From positions 1 through 64,000 of the forward strand of contig JAUNDK010000001.1 of assembly GCA_030526115.1 (NCBI GenBank): a stretch of DNA of 64,000 nucleotides, in the 5' to 3' direction. Source of the DNA: Clostridia bacterium. GTDB taxonomy: Bacteria; Bacillota; Clostridia; Oscillospirales; Acutalibacteraceae. This document shows positions 1-64,000 of the stretch, one piece after another (the stretch's first letter is position 1; the number at the start of each line of letters is the position of its first letter). A program made the translations under genes and the position numbers. Under the pieces are notes generated by a model that saw only the letters and a list, made by a program, of their open reading frames with translations, was not told where the DNA came from and ran no database searches.

Positions 1-27
1 TTTTCAGGGTTTCATCCCTTTTTTATA

Positions 28-57
28 CAGTCTATCCATACGGATAGGCTGTTTTTT
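28..57 (+). terminator. Rho-independent terminator of the gene upstream of the window
   Basis: A 10-bp stem (cagtctatcc / ggataggctg) with a 4-base loop is followed by six Ts. It would end a + strand transcript whose gene lies before position 1. Confidence 0.85.
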
Positions 58-603: not shown

Positions 604-636
604 AAAAGCGGACAGTTAAAGCTGCCCGCCGTTTTA
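604..636 (-). terminator. Terminator of the GG-leader peptide gene
   Basis: Inverted repeat aaaagcggacag / ctgcccgccgtttt with a short loop. Read on the minus strand it ends in a T-rich run just after the stop of the gene ending at 644. Confidence 0.8.
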
Positions 637-643
637 ATATATA

Positions 644-961
644 TTATTCATCATCGGAATATCCCTGAGGAATCTTATTGCCCTCCCAGAGTTCCTGCTC
701 GAAGTATTCATAAGGCTTGTCATCAGGACAGTGTCTTTCAAATGTCGGCTCTTCACTTGATTCCGGAGGATCCTGAATAGGAGCACTCTGAACCGGGTCC
801 TTTGGAGCAGTAGGTGTAGTATTCCAAGTCGGTCTATGTGGACCGATTGGAGTTTTTACTCTTCTTGTTATTTTTGTCCACCAAGCGCCACCTGAAACCT
901 CTTCAAGGCTGTCATCATCGATTTCCTGAGCTTTGGGAATCTTCTTTTCGTCGTCAATCAT
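644..961 (-). CDS. Orphan double-glycine leader peptide (RiPP/bacteriocin-like precursor)
   Basis: This 105-residue protein starts with an acidic, helix-prone leader ending in LEEVSGG at residues 19-25. That is the classic double-glycine site cut by C39-peptidase (PCAT) ABC exporters. The predicted 80-residue core begins AWW, is rich in Pro, Thr and acidic residues, and contains a single Cys (residue 79) with no lanthipeptide-like Cys clusters. The start has a gaagga ribosome binding site, and a consensus promoter and terminator frame it as a single-gene transcript. No modification enzyme, immunity protein or C39 transporter is next to it, so export would need a machine encoded elsewhere. Bacteriocin, signalling peptide or other secreted cargo are all possible. 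Confidence 0.6.
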   Translation of the reverse strand: MIDDEKKIPKAQEIDDDSLEEVSGGAWWTKITRRVKTPIGPHRPTWNTTPTAPKDPVQSAPIQDPPESSEEPTFERHCPDDKPYEYFEQELWEGNKIPQGYSDDE

Positions 962-1010
962 GGTTAAAATCCTTCAAAAAAATATGTGAAAAATCAACTC
1001 TTTATTCGTA

Positions 1011-1039
1011 ACTATACTACTGTATATAAGAACTGTCAA
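1011..1039 (-). promoter_or_regulatory. Sigma-A promoter of the GG-leader peptide gene
   Basis: Minus-strand -35 TTGACA (1034-1039), 17-bp spacer, -10 TATAGT (1011-1016). It begins immediately after the argF terminator and drives a leader of about 45 bases. Confidence 0.85.
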
Positions 1040-1042
1040 GAA

Positions 1043-1074
1043 AAACAGCGGACAGTGTGACCTGTCCGCCGTTT
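1043..1074 (-). terminator. Terminator of argF
   Basis: A strong stem (aacggcggacag / ctgtccgctgtt on the minus strand) followed by TTT lies directly after the argF stop and just before the next promoter. Confidence 0.85.
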
Positions 1075-2430: not shown

Positions 2431-4092
2431 ATGAAAAGACTTCTTGCTCTTGTTCTTGTTCTCGCTATGGCAGTAACATGCTGCGTAACAGCTTCCGCTG
2501 AAGAGAACAACAATGCGGATCTTTATCCTGGCACAACTGAAGAGAACACAATCGTTGTTGATCTCTCCATGGAGCCAACATCCATCAACTCACTCTCCGG
2601 AACATATTCCGCAGACTTCAAAATCATGAACTGCCTCCTCACAGGCCTTTGCGCTCATGATGAAAACTCCAACCCTGGCCCAGGTGTTGCTGAGTCCTGG
2701 GACATCGCTGAAGATGGTCTCACATACACATTCCACCTTCGTGACGATGTAGTATGGTCCAACGGCACACAGGTTACAGCTAACGACTATGCTTTCGCAT
2801 GGAAGATGGCTATGACAGCTGAGACAGGTACAGAGTACGCTTACTTCCTCTACAACACAGCTGCTATCCTCAACGGTGAGAAGTTCTACAACGGTGAGTG
2901 CGACTGGGAAGAGGTTGGCGTTAAGGTTCTCGATGATTACACACTCGAGGTTAAGCTCGCAGCTCCAATTCCATACTTCCTTTCCCTCATGACATTCGGA
3001 ACACTCTTCCCTGTTAACGAGGCTTTCTACAACGAAGTTGGTGCTGACAACTACTTCATGGATCCTGAGTACACAATCTCCTGCGGTCCATACGTAATGG
3101 ATACTTGGACACATGATTCCGAGATCATCCTCAAGAAGAACCCAACATACTTCGATGCTGACAAGGTTTCCGTTGATACATTCGTTTGGAAGATGTACAC
3201 AACTTCCGATACAAGACTCAACGCTTTCAAGGCTGGCGAAGTTGACGTTATTTCCCTTACAGGTGACCAGGCTGTTCAGATGAAGAACGAAGGTTTCGTA
3301 ACTCACGACTTCGTTGAGCAGACAGAGTACCACATCCTCTTCAACTGCGAAGACAAGTACATGTCCAACAAGAACCTCAGAAAGGCTATTGATGCTTGCT
3401 ACTCAAGATCTGCTTACATCGCAGCTATCCTCAAGGATCAGTCTCAGCCGGCTACAATGTTCTGCCCAGGTCCTGTTGCAGGCTTTGACGGTAACTCCTT
3501 CAGAGATGCTATGGTAGCTGAGATCGGTGAGCTCAGAAGCGCAGAGGCTGACGAAGCTGCAGCTAAGGATTACCTCGCAAAGGCTCTCGAGGAGCTCGGA
3601 TGCACAGTTGAGGATCTCTCCGCTCACATCACAATGAACGTTGGTGATTCCGATACAGCTGTTAACACAGCAGCATTCTTCCAGGAGAACATCAGAACTG
3701 TCCTCGGTATCGATATCACAGTTAACTCCATGACAACAAAGGCTCTCTCCGCTGAGAGAAACAACGGTAACTTCGTTCTCGACTTCTCCGGTTGGGGCGG
3801 TGACTACAACGATCCAATGACATGGTACGACATGTGGGAGACAGGCGGAGGTAACAACTCTGTTAAGTTCTCTAACGCTGACTACGATGCAGCTCTTGCT
3901 GATGCAAGAACAAACACAGACCTCGAGGCTCGTCAGAAGGACTTCTACACATGTGAGCAGATTCTCGCTGAGGAGTGCCCAATCTCCACAGTTTACTACA
4001 GATCTTCTTCCTATGCTATCTCCGGTAAGGTAACAGGTGGTTACATCCTCGATACATGGCAGAACAACTTCAGATTCGCTACAGTTAAATAA
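2431..4092 (+). CDS. Oligopeptide ABC transporter substrate-binding protein
   Basis: Extracellular binding protein of the SBP_bac_5 (OppA/DppA) family, which captures peptides for an ABC importer. The 553-residue precursor has a signal peptide (MKRLLALVLVLAMAV, probable cut after TASA near residue 23). The mature part has the family patterns AESWDIAEDGLTYTFHLRD near 85-105 and a long two-lobe fold. Two cysteines at 17-18 do not form a good lipobox, so a lipoprotein is possible but unlikely. Codons are extremely uniform (gtt, aca, ctc, aac), as in highly expressed genes. It is an orphan: no permease or ATPase genes are adjacent, so it must serve a transporter encoded elsewhere. It has its own promoter and terminator. 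Confidence 0.92.
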   Translation: MKRLLALVLVLAMAVTCCVTASAEENNNADLYPGTTEENTIVVDLSMEPTSINSLSGTYSADFKIMNCLLTGLCAHDENSNPGPGVAESWDIAEDGLTYTFHLRDDVVWSNGTQVTANDYAFAWKMAMTAETGTEYAYFLYNTAAILNGEKFYNGECDWEEVGVKVLDDYTLEVKLAAPIPYFLSLMTFGTLFPVNEAFYNEVGADNYFMDPEYTISCGPYVMDTWTHDSEIILKKNPTYFDADKVSVDTFVWKMYTTSDTRLNAFKAGEVDVISLTGDQAVQMKNEGFVTHDFVEQTEYHILFNCEDKYMSNKNLRKAIDACYSRSAYIAAILKDQSQPATMFCPGPVAGFDGNSFRDAMVAEIGELRSAEADEAAAKDYLAKALEELGCTVEDLSAHITMNVGDSDTAVNTAAFFQENIRTVLGIDITVNSMTTKALSAERNNGNFVLDFSGWGGDYNDPMTWYDMWETGGGNNSVKFSNADYDAALADARTNTDLEARQKDFYTCEQILAEECPISTVYYRSSSYAISGKVTGGYILDTWQNNFRFATVK

Positions 4093-4189
4093 TTTAACTT
4101 AATTCGAAACTGCTTGATTATTACAAAGATTTTGTTAACTGATTTCTTTGATAATAACTTATTTATAAGAGAGTAGTGTTTTTACGGAA

Positions 4190-4222
4190 GCGGCCGTCCC
4201 AACAGGGACGGTCACTTTTGTT
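4190..4222 (+). terminator. Terminator of the peptide-binding protein gene
   Basis: Stem ggccgtccc / gggacggtc with a 4-base loop, followed by a T-rich stretch, about 100 bases after the stop codon. Confidence 0.85.
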
Positions 4223-4295
4223 TTATATGTTGTTTTTATGGGCGATATTGTTGTATAATCATTAAAGTATGAATTACTTATGAGGTAGTGATATA

Positions 4296-5819
4296 ATGAC
4301 TGTAATAAAAAACGGAAAAATAATCGATGGTACAGGAGAAAAGGCTTATACTGCCGATATGCTCATAGAAGATGGGATAATTGCCGATATCGGAAAAATC
4401 GATATAGAAGGCGCGGAAATAATTGACGCGAAGGGGAAGTGTGTAACCCCGGGATTCATAGATGCTCACCGTCATCATGACATAGCAGTACTCTATGATG
4501 AAAATTTCGGGGAGGCCGAGCTTCGTCAGGGAATAACAACAGCGATAGCGGGAAACTGCGGCCTTGCACCTGCTCCGACAACTCCTGAGATTCTCGACTA
4601 TATAGAGCCGTGTCTCGGCAGAGCGGACTGTAATTTTATATCCGTTGCGGATTATATCACTCAGCTTAAAAATAATGATTTACCGCTCAATGTGGGTGTG
4701 CTGTGTGCCACAGGCAGCATTACTGCTGCAGTAAAGGGATACGGAAAAGGAAGGATGACCGAAGAACAGCTTCGGAAAGCGTGTAAGTGGATTGAGGAAG
4801 GCGTGCAGGCAGGAGCGCTTGGTCTTTCCTGCGGAATAATGTATGATCCCGAATGTTACACAGCGGAAGAAGAATTTGTCGCCATGGCAAAAGCGGCGGC
4901 AAAGCACGGCGGGTACCTTACAAGCCATATAAGAGGCGAGGGAAACAGCCTTGCAAAGTCGATTGAGGAGATAATCAGAATAGCGAAGAAGGCTGATATA
5001 TCCCTTAATATATCCCATTTTAAGGTTACAGGAATTAAGAACTGGGGCAAAGGTCTTGATGAGGCGATAGAGCTTATTGAGAAAGCAGGTAACGTAACGG
5101 TTGATTGTTATCCATACATAGCAGGTTCCACAACCATAATGAGCCTGTTGCCACCGACAGTGAAGAATATTCACGACTGCGAGTTCCTGAAAAAAGAAAT
5201 CTACCGTGAACACGCTGACTGGGATAATATGGTTTCATCCATCGGTTTTGAGAATATAGGGATAAGTTCTGTCATGTGTGAAGATGACAGAAAGTTCTGC
5301 GGCATGAATATGAAAGAAGCGGCTGATTTCGTTGGAATCGAGCCACATGTCCTGATGAGTGAGCTTATAGAGAGAAACAACGGAAAAGTAGGAGTGATAC
5401 TTTACAGTATGGCGCAGAGCGATGTGAACAGAGTGCTGAGTCTGCCGTACTGTTCAGTAATAAGCGACAGTCTTTATGGTGGAGGAGATAATCCCCACCC
5501 AAGACTTTACGGAAGTTTCCCAAGGGTAATAAGAAAATGTGTCAGAGAAGATAAACTCTTCAGTCTTGAAACCGCAGTCAGAAAAATGACAGGTATGCCG
5601 GCGGACAGACTTGGTTTAAGGGACCGAGGTTATCTGAAGAAGGGAATGAAGGCGGATGTGCTGATATTTGATGAAAAGAAAATCAGTGATAAAGCAACAT
5701 TCGAGGATGCAAAGCAGTACTGTGTCGGTCTTGATAAGGTAATTGTCAATGGTGTAATTGCGGTAGATAAAGACAGACTGACCGGCACAAAAGCAGGTGA
5801 ATTTGCAGTAAAAGAGTAA
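4296..5819 (+). CDS. N-acyl-D-amino-acid deacylase (D-aminoacylase)
   Basis: Cytoplasmic amidohydrolase-superfamily enzyme that removes acyl groups from N-acyl-D-amino acids. The 507-residue protein has the N-terminal beta-sandwich strand VIKNGKIIDGTG, the metal motif DAHRHHD near 56-62, GNCG near 91 (the D-aminoacylase Cys), SHIRGE near 209, SHFK near 249, and a C-terminal LYGGGDNPHPRLYGSFPRV block holding the catalytic Asp region. This pattern fits the D-aminoacylase/dihydroorotase-like family better than hydantoinases. A gaggt site precedes the ATG. No D-amino-acid genes are adjacent; it could help recycle D-amino acids from cell wall or food peptides (inference). Confidence 0.88.
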   Translation: MTVIKNGKIIDGTGEKAYTADMLIEDGIIADIGKIDIEGAEIIDAKGKCVTPGFIDAHRHHDIAVLYDENFGEAELRQGITTAIAGNCGLAPAPTTPEILDYIEPCLGRADCNFISVADYITQLKNNDLPLNVGVLCATGSITAAVKGYGKGRMTEEQLRKACKWIEEGVQAGALGLSCGIMYDPECYTAEEEFVAMAKAAAKHGGYLTSHIRGEGNSLAKSIEEIIRIAKKADISLNISHFKVTGIKNWGKGLDEAIELIEKAGNVTVDCYPYIAGSTTIMSLLPPTVKNIHDCEFLKKEIYREHADWDNMVSSIGFENIGISSVMCEDDRKFCGMNMKEAADFVGIEPHVLMSELIERNNGKVGVILYSMAQSDVNRVLSLPYCSVISDSLYGGGDNPHPRLYGSFPRVIRKCVREDKLFSLETAVRKMTGMPADRLGLRDRGYLKKGMKADVLIFDEKKISDKATFEDAKQYCVGLDKVIVNGVIAVDKDRLTGTKAGEFAVKE

Positions 5820-6474: not shown

Positions 6475-7275
6475 TTAGGCTTTATGAGTTGTGATGAATT
6501 CTTCCATCATGTCCCTTGCCTTGTCACTTATCTCCGCTGTGGAGTGGGCTGAGACATATTCTCTGTCAAGCACACCGACAATGTCGAGCATGACAACAGT
6601 CTTTTTCGGGAAATTCTTACGGCATTCTTCGCTGCCCCTGATTACACCCACCGCAACAGAGCAGTCAGCCTTTTTGGCAATCTTAAAGGCACCGTTCTTA
6701 AATGGGAGAAGTCCCTCTCCGCTGTTTCTTGTGCCCTCGGGATAAATGCCGATACTTGCCTCACCGCTGTCGATAACCTCAATGGCTCTGCCTATGGTTT
6801 TAACCTCATCACGGATTGTTCCTCGATTAAGGGAAAGACAGAATATAAGGTGCATCATGCGGCCGATAATCGGAATTTTGAAAAGCTCTTTTTTGGCAAC
6901 AAAGCCGACTCTGTGTTTTCTGAGAGCAAAAATTCCGACCAGAGGATCATAGTTTGAGCGGTGATTGCCCACAAAGAGGAACGGTTCATTGGGAAGTTTT
7001 TCTTCGCCGGTATATACCAGCTTTATTCTCATAAAAGTCAGGGCAACATCCAGCATAAGTGCTGAATAGAAATTGATGAACTTTGAAGATTTTTCCACCG
7101 GCTTTTCCATGTCAATCTGTGAAACATACAGGAGACACGGTGTTAAAACCAGAAGGAGAATTCCCACCATCAGTCCGAGAAAAATCGGAAGAAGAAACCA
7201 CCACGATACATTTGTAAAAATGTACAGCAGAGCGGTAATAATCGCAGAAGCAACAGCAAGAAGAGAAATTGTCAT
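6475..7275 (-). CDS. plsC: 1-acyl-sn-glycerol-3-phosphate acyltransferase (PlsC-type)
   Basis: Adds the second acyl chain to lysophosphatidic acid, making phosphatidic acid at the membrane. The 266-residue protein has N-terminal hydrophobic segments (about residues 1-55), the catalytic NHRSNYDP (HX4D) motif near 104-111, and YPEGTRNSGEG near 180, the glycerol-3-phosphate-binding block. The start at 7275 has an aaggag site and overlaps the plsY stop by four bases (ATGA), so the pair is translationally coupled. plsY makes the lysophosphatidate that this enzyme consumes, which strongly supports the call. It runs about 20-30 residues longer than minimal PlsC because of the extended membrane N-terminus. 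Confidence 0.92.
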   Translation of the reverse strand: MTISLLAVASAIITALLYIFTNVSWWFLLPIFLGLMVGILLLVLTPCLLYVSQIDMEKPVEKSSKFINFYSALMLDVALTFMRIKLVYTGEEKLPNEPFLFVGNHRSNYDPLVGIFALRKHRVGFVAKKELFKIPIIGRMMHLIFCLSLNRGTIRDEVKTIGRAIEVIDSGEASIGIYPEGTRNSGEGLLPFKNGAFKIAKKADCSVAVGVIRGSEECRKNFPKKTVVMLDIVGVLDREYVSAHSTAEISDKARDMMEEFITTHKA

Positions 7276-7901
7276 TTTCTGAACTCCTTTCCTTTCCACA
7301 GTGCATTAATGGGGAGTTCTTCTCCGCTCATTACTTTCTTTATGTTCGGTATGTGCTTGATTACCACAAACACAGAAGCAATGCAGTAGATGAGAGCGCC
7401 TGTAACGTTCTTAGTGATAAGTCCGTAAAGCAGAGGTACAAGTACGCTTGTCAGCAGAGGGAAAATTACTCCGTAACCCACAAGAAGCGCAGGTACCAGT
7501 TCTGCAAAGAACAGTATCAGCAAAGCAACAGGGTGGTACGAAAGAATAATTCCCGCAAGACATGCAAGACCCTTGCCTCCCTTGAACTTCATGTAGAATG
7601 GGTACATGTGACCGATAATACATGCGGTTCCGCTTATCTCTGTGGAGAGATTGAATTCGGGAAGGGCTTTGTTTGCAAGGTACACAGCTGCACAGGCCTT
7701 TGCCACATCGAACACAGCAATCATCATTCCCACATTTTTGCCCATTGCGAGGGCGGCATTGGTTGCACCGGCATTGCCGGAACCGGTATTTCGAATGTCA
7801 AACCCCTTAAGCTTAGAAATTATGAACGCGGGGTTGATACATCCTATAAGATAGCCGATTAAGGCTGAAACAAGTATTCCGAAAAGTATTTCCTTGTTCA
7901 C
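7272..7901 (-). CDS. plsY: Glycerol-3-phosphate acyltransferase PlsY
   Basis: Integral membrane enzyme that acylates glycerol-3-phosphate using acyl-phosphate, the first step of phospholipid synthesis in most Gram-positives. Family motifs are present: IGCINPAF near the N-terminus, TGSGNAGATN, GHMYPFYMKFKGGKG, and HIPNIKKVMSGEE. Several hydrophobic helices span the 209 residues. The most likely start is GTG at 7901, about 9 bases after ggaggtg. An alternative GTG at 7934 lacks a ribosome binding site and would place the Shine-Dalgarno inside the gene. It overlaps plsC by four bases. An extended -10 promoter lies just upstream. Confidence 0.93.
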   Translation of the reverse strand: MNKEILFGILVSALIGYLIGCINPAFIISKLKGFDIRNTGSGNAGATNAALAMGKNVGMMIAVFDVAKACAAVYLANKALPEFNLSTEISGTACIIGHMYPFYMKFKGGKGLACLAGIILSYHPVALLILFFAELVPALLVGYGVIFPLLTSVLVPLLYGLITKNVTGALIYCIASVFVVIKHIPNIKKVMSGEELPINALWKGKEFRK

Positions 7902-7942
7902 GGTGATATTCACCTCCGGATAAAATATAATCACATCAATGC

Positions 7943-63578: not shown

Positions 63579-64000
63579 ATGAAAAGATTACTGCTGTCTT
63601 TAATCCTCTGCTTCTGCATGATTTTTTTATCTCTGCCCATAAATGCCGAAGAGATTTCAGAGGACAGATACGATGTGAATATAACAGGGCAGTTCCGTTA
63701 CGATTACGCCCGGAAGGTATTTGAACTCACAAATGAATACAGAGTATCTCAGGGAAAAGAGGAGCTTATTCTTGATGAATACCTGACGGAAAAAGCCATG
63801 CAGAGGGCGGCGGAAATATGTGTGAAATATTACCCTGCCCACGAAAGACCAAACGGTGCAAAGGGAACGAATATCATAATGGGTTACGGCACAGCGGTGG
63901 CGGAAAATATTGCCGCAGGTCAGCCCAATCCCACACGGGTTACAAACGCATGGATAAACTCCGAGGGGCACAGGCTAAATATTATGGGCGAAACAAAAGA
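63579..64000 (+). CDS. Secreted CAP (SCP/PR-1) domain protein, truncated by window end
   Basis: Start of an exported protein; only the first 140 codons are in the window. A signal peptide (MKRLLLSLILCFCMIFLSL, cut after NA near residue 24) precedes a CAP domain. ARKVFELTNEYRVSQGK is the standard beginning, PAHERPNG holds a His ligand, and AENIAAGQ with WINSEGHRLNIM gives Glu and the second His of the CAP tetrad. Cys12 falls inside the signal. Bacterial CAP proteins bind lipids or act on the envelope; the precise role is unknown. Clear ggagg site. The remaining part lies beyond 64000. Confidence 0.88.
   Translation, partial: MKRLLLSLILCFCMIFLSLPINAEEISEDRYDVNITGQFRYDYARKVFELTNEYRVSQGKEELILDEYLTEKAMQRAAEICVKYYPAHERPNGAKGTNIIMGYGTAVAENIAAGQPNPTRVTNAWINSEGHRLNIMGETK

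Follow-up and report, generated by a model that had tools for sequence, protein, structure and literature searches.

At one end of the window, by which we mean the whole 64-kb stretch of DNA analysed here (contig C110 from its start to base 64,000, in a 2.59-Mb genome assembled in 135 contigs and 99% complete), a double-glycine (GG)-leader precursor gene (644–961, minus strand) is flanked by the genes for an ornithine carbamoyltransferase and a small cysteine-rich (PF04071) protein. The open reading frame (ORF; 961–644) starts with ATG, encodes 105 amino acids followed by a stop codon and has the codon usage of the neighbouring genes: at 0.31 bit per codon it beats all 280 off-frame chunks and lies inside the range of 56 on-frame chunks. 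A ribosome-binding site, GAAGGA (970–975, minus strand), can be read from the sequence 8 nt upstream of the ATG. Promoter scanning placed a −35 hexamer, TTGACA, at 1034–1039 and a −10 hexamer, TATAGT, at 1011–1016, both on the minus strand and separated by a 17-nt spacer. The resulting TTGACA-17-TATAGT element (1039–1011) has 11 of 12 matches and ranked top of the 10 promoter-like sites observed in positions 1–2500, where shuffled sequences gave 5.6 ± 2.3. Behind the gene stands an intrinsic terminator (607–630, minus strand; −15.6 kcal/mol, z −4.7) made of a 9-pair stem and a T run. Codon usage, ribosome-binding site, promoter and folded terminator thus bear out the sequence-only reading, which had described a GG-leader gene with its own promoter and terminator.

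A second hairpin (1048–1069, minus strand; −24.4 kcal/mol, z −8.0) is found 3′ of the upstream ornithine carbamoyltransferase gene, between that gene and the precursor promoter; the terminator scan calls its stem a terminator on the plus strand only. The two hairpins flanking the precursor gene have near-identical stems (GCGGRCAG / CTGTCCGC) and different loops, and no Rfam model matched within positions 1–2500. For the ornithine carbamoyltransferase itself, the best carbamoyltransferase matches in two same-genus genomes are 45% identical.

Surroundings of the gene and the contig end

Scanning of 20 larger ORFs to the right of the gene (1087 to 31112; 16 have Pfam domains and 4 have none; the set excludes ORF 7272–7934 and the small ones) revealed no exporter domain and no RiPP-modification domain, radical SAM included, and no immunity gene was recognised near the precursor. 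The earlier claim that exporter, immunity and modification genes are absent nearby therefore stands for the 20 right-side ORFs scanned; on the left, base 1 of C110 lies 643 nt from the precursor stop codon. Contig C29 opens with the same 55 bases as those at window positions 1–55; the assembly forks here, at a sequence resembling a terminator.

Such a position leaves room for a local cluster beyond the contig end, to which the precursor would belong and which the exporter on contig C125 described below would not serve. The contig start at this 55-nt fork, 643 nt from the stop codon, and the lack of a recognised immunity gene nearby would both suit such an arrangement. We nevertheless regard it as quite unlikely, because a single C39 domain was found in the whole 99% complete genome, the stretch from the precursor gene to the contig end contains two unrelated small ORFs, and the precursor has a promoter and a terminator of its own.

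A shared leader and a single C39 exporter

The leader, delimited by sequence, profile and pattern search, comprises residues 1–25 (887–961, minus strand). It is acidic (net charge −6) and ends in LEEVSGG, with I at −12, L at −7, V at −4 and GG at −2/−1 (residues 24–25). No model for nitrile hydratase alpha or Nif11-related long leaders matches the window peptide.

Elsewhere in the genome, leaders of the same kind head a tandem array of about 16 GG-leader precursors, which occupies the end of contig C92 (locus L035, 5149–9076) and the start of contig C125 (locus L002, 1–1077). C92 carries thirteen array leaders, the last of them interrupted where the contig stops; the other three follow a partial core on C125. 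The two contigs probably adjoin each other, since C92 breaks off, and C125 starts, within an array gene, although their two ends do not overlap. Alignment of 12 array members revealed C, C, H, G and YCDxC common to their cores, most of which have the four-cysteine form CPxC...YCDPC. The array peptide is modelled as an all-beta, zinc-ribbon-like structure (core pLDDT about 90), for which the PDB returned no match at E 0.001 or better. Two array members (L035, 8048–8209 and 8263–8421) have short, cysteine-free Gly/Asn-rich cores with the same C-terminal tail, KPDTQEKKAREI. The array leaders are 17–22 amino acids long, compared with 25 for the window leader, and the array genes are packed, with promoter-like sites no commoner than in shuffled sequence, unlike the window gene with its promoter. 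In the species contig collection, the sole other four-cysteine array-type locus found was a contig of an uncultured Clostridia (L123), where a four-cysteine GG precursor is encoded together with a leucine-rich-repeat-like protein and another GG-like precursor, this one with a long leader (2585–5726).

To compare leaders, we built a profile from the 16 array leaders, excluding that of the window peptide, and applied it to 87,966 six-frame windows taken from the 64 kb analysed here and the remainder of C125. The window leader scored 24.2 bits and the next-best window 14.1 bits, which is why, as far as sequence comparison can tell, the window leader is no chance match. The array leaders score 33–43 bits, being themselves in the training set. 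A degenerate leader pattern occurred at 9 places in the 2.59-Mb genome and nowhere in the reversed control, and every one of these is a GG precursor, of which C92 carries six and C125 two, the ninth being the window gene. With one mismatch allowed, 36 matches were obtained across the whole genome (13 in the control), of which 15 are real precursors, namely 14 in the C92/C125 cluster and, again, the window gene. The sole other short-ORF candidate at one mismatch, L043, lies antisense to a long ORF. Away from the cluster, the pattern searches uncovered no such precursor in the genome besides the window peptide.

One could argue that the GG is coincidental and the product a small, acidic cytoplasmic protein, given that its leader scores lower on the array profile than those used to build it and that the peptide falls below the Pfam cut-offs for Bacteriocin_IIc (PF10439; 11.3 against 27.1 bits) and ComC (PF03047; 15.8 against 20.4 bits). 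The lead of 10 bits over the runner-up among 87,966 windows, together with an exact pattern that finds GG precursors and nothing else in the genome and a reversed control of zero, renders this explanation very improbable.

The genome encodes one C39 peptidase domain, in an ABC transporter (ABC1) on C125 (L002, 7644–9677). Its peptidase contains the Cys, His and Asp motifs, which we take to be the catalytic ones. ABC1 belongs best to the NHLP-type ABC1 family and is adjoined by an NHLP-type ABC2, a short HlyD and GG precursors. All three components score below the curated cut-offs (ABC1, 790.8 against 853.3 bits; ABC2, 673.4 against 709.4 bits; HlyD, 37 against 156.2 bits), although the NHLP families are the top-scoring ones for each. 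As assembled, ABC1 aligns to positions 1–657 of a model with 710 positions. A frame change at L002 9640–9760 costs it the H-loop and the C-terminal end, the latter still being legible in a different frame a short way downstream. The Walker A, signature and Walker B motifs are retained before the frame is lost. Either faulty assembly or a genuine lesion could explain the frame change. Genes for a histidine kinase and a response regulator adjoin the exporter (L002, 4873–7045). The regulator combines a receiver domain with a C-terminal region that matched no Pfam family; it is a candidate controller of the precursor array. C125 also encodes a large BspA-type leucine-rich-repeat protein alongside its precursors.

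The sequence-only reading had called the gene an orphan and suggested that it might supply cargo for a distributed secretion system, an idea to be checked by searching the genome for C39 peptidases and for other small proteins with the same leader. The orphan label is right where the immediate surroundings and the core are concerned; it fails for the leader, since about 16 precursors elsewhere carry the same kind. The cargo idea survived the peptidase check, with one exporter found, and gained support from the like-leader precursors beside it. We consider it likely that the window gene is a free-standing precursor of this single C39-peptidase ABC exporter on another contig. Against such an assignment count the truncation of ABC1, the 24.2-bit leader score as set against 33–43 bits for the training-set array leaders, the Ser at −8, a promoter unlike the array arrangement and the lack of any homologue that could show GG to be conserved.

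The core peptide and leader genes in relatives

The predicted released peptide (residues 26–105; 647–886, minus strand) begins AWW and has 80 residues, among them 13 Pro, 4 Trp and, by reading of the sequence, a single Cys. It is acidic overall, and its single-sequence model is of low confidence (mean pLDDT 58.6). Searches of 60 relatives, 398 family-sample genomes and 394 order-sample genomes (overlapping sets), of a contig collection of 84,980 species (with peptide patterns), and of viral contigs and plasmids turned up no homologue of the core. Searches of PDB sequences and PHROGs with the window peptide returned chance-level matches only, and its score against a XyeA-type RiPP model was 14.8 bits (cut-off, 33). 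None of the 36 weak-match loci, re-read on both strands, has a GG leader ahead of the match. The best weak match in the family search (57% over 28 residues, in genome G019) was dismissed as chance, as it sits in an untranslated region before a gene that we take to be MltG-like.

By these sequence searches, the core is lineage-specific at present sampling, as would be expected of a competition peptide and, just as well, of a young gene. A leader copied from the array might have been fused to non-adapted sequence, leaving a relic or fresh orphan that is expressed without a selected function. The absence of a homologue in every collection searched, the low-confidence fold and the truncation of ABC1 in the assembly all point that way, whereas the intact ORF with native codon usage, the ribosome-binding site, the near-consensus promoter and the strong terminator speak against it; we hold a relic or fresh orphan to be unlikely.

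We then asked how leader and exporter are distributed among the relatives (60 genomes including that of the window, 59 without it). A full exporter-type C39 protein, defined by E below 1e-30 and a frame over 670 amino acids, is encoded in six of the 60 (the window's own genome, G007, G012, G035, G037 and G041); the exporter-minus class includes five genomes with weak C39 matches in frames of 277–359 amino acids (G001, G002, G004, G008 and G023). All 84 matches to the leader pattern, from 47 of the 60 genomes, were read. Short GG-leader ORFs account for 9/9 matches in the window's genome, 3/3 in G007, 1/1 in G035, 0/5 in G037 and 0/1 in G041; G012, despite its exporter, has no match. In the exporter-minus genomes, 2 of 65 matches are short GG-leader ORFs. 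Leaving out the window's own genome, ATG-started ORFs of this kind occur in 2/5 exporter genomes and 0/54 exporter-minus genomes (Fisher p 0.006; small numbers); with any start codon the counts, likewise small, are 2/5 and 2/54 (p 0.03). The exporter-minus candidates, in G033 and G053, have non-ATG starts and no Shine–Dalgarno sequence was seen before them; on visual inspection, L110, a G007 candidate, is questionable. The short GG-leader ORFs at L083 and L109 (G007) and L090 (G035) have unrelated cores, one of them Cys-rich at its end. As the GG-leader ORFs of G007 and G035 lie on other contigs than their exporters, unlinked precursors do not seem peculiar to the window's genome.

Comparison with known systems and proposed route

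The window leader has the hydrophobic residues at −12, −7 and −4 and the GG expected of substrates of peptidase-containing ABC transporters. Passages of PMC6959990 give the substrate consensus of PCAT1 as L(−12), E(−8), L(−7), G(−2) and G(−1), and describe a helix from −10 to −4 that docks on the peptidase. In place of the consensus Glu at −8 the window leader has Ser; this Glu is not strict in the present genome, since several array leaders have T, A, I or D there. LahT150, according to excerpts of PMC6363468, cleaves a diverse set of precursors. Because the leader presents I, S, L, V at −4 and GG at the PCAT1 places and LahT150 is tolerant, recognition and cutting of the window precursor by the C125 exporter is, by analogy, most likely. 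We infer the following route. The precursor gene would be transcribed alone from its sigma-70-type promoter; the 25-residue leader would dock on the C39 domain of the exporter through its hydrophobic residues at −12, −7 and −4 and be cut after Gly-Gly; and the 80-residue, apparently unstructured Pro-rich peptide would then be exported.

Among described systems, class II double-glycine bacteriocins and the PCAT1 substrate CtA likewise combine a short leader with hydrophobic residues at −12, −7 and −4 and GG, as set out in parts of PMC6959990. The window peptide differs in its acidic, Pro-rich core of 80 residues, in having no linked exporter, accessory gene or recognised immunity gene and, relative to class II, in matching no family above cut-off. 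The Lah system of Lachnospiraceae C6A11 (LahT and nine LahA) similarly pairs one sequence-tolerant C39 protease with several GG precursors of divergent core, as sections of PMC6363468 report. LahA peptides, however, have Nif11-type leaders and belong to a lanthipeptide operon, whereas the window gene encodes a short leader and is unlinked, with no modifying enzyme seen nearby. The NHLP/N11P systems with TIGR03794/03796/03797 exporters share the exporter-trio type and, according to PMC2887384, likewise have paralogous precursors with a conserved leader and variable cores. Their leaders average 83 and 70 amino acids, against 25 in the window and 17–22 in the array, and ABC1, ABC2 and HlyD of the present genome all fall short of the curated cut-offs.

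A distributed layout is already known for NHLP-type systems, since passages of Haft 2010 (PMC2887384) state that precursors can be distant from the export genes and a cyanobacterial survey likewise mentions distantly located precursors (parts of PMC3140520). Open-licence PMC papers yielded no description of either the window peptide or the four-cysteine GG array; within this literature, both the core and the combination of an NHLP-like exporter with short-leader cargo peptides are new. As to use, the released peptide would most likely act as an unmodified, bacteriocin-like, lineage-specific competition peptide, with extracellular signalling as the alternative; that it is antimicrobial is a guess, and one we would sooner doubt than endorse.

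More broadly, and as a tentative idea that falls a little short of an even chance, an NHLP-kind exporter could serve as a general short-leader secretion route, handling both a four-cysteine array and an unlinked, independently expressed and structurally unrelated Pro-rich peptide. If so, the peptides exported in such genomes could not be listed from the surroundings of the exporter alone. Peptide discovery usually concentrates on the surroundings of exporters. In the present case, searching with the leader type of an array linked to an exporter led to an unlinked precursor whose core is unlike any in the collections searched. If the predicted cleavage is true, leader-first searching would reveal cargo that neighbourhood mining misses.
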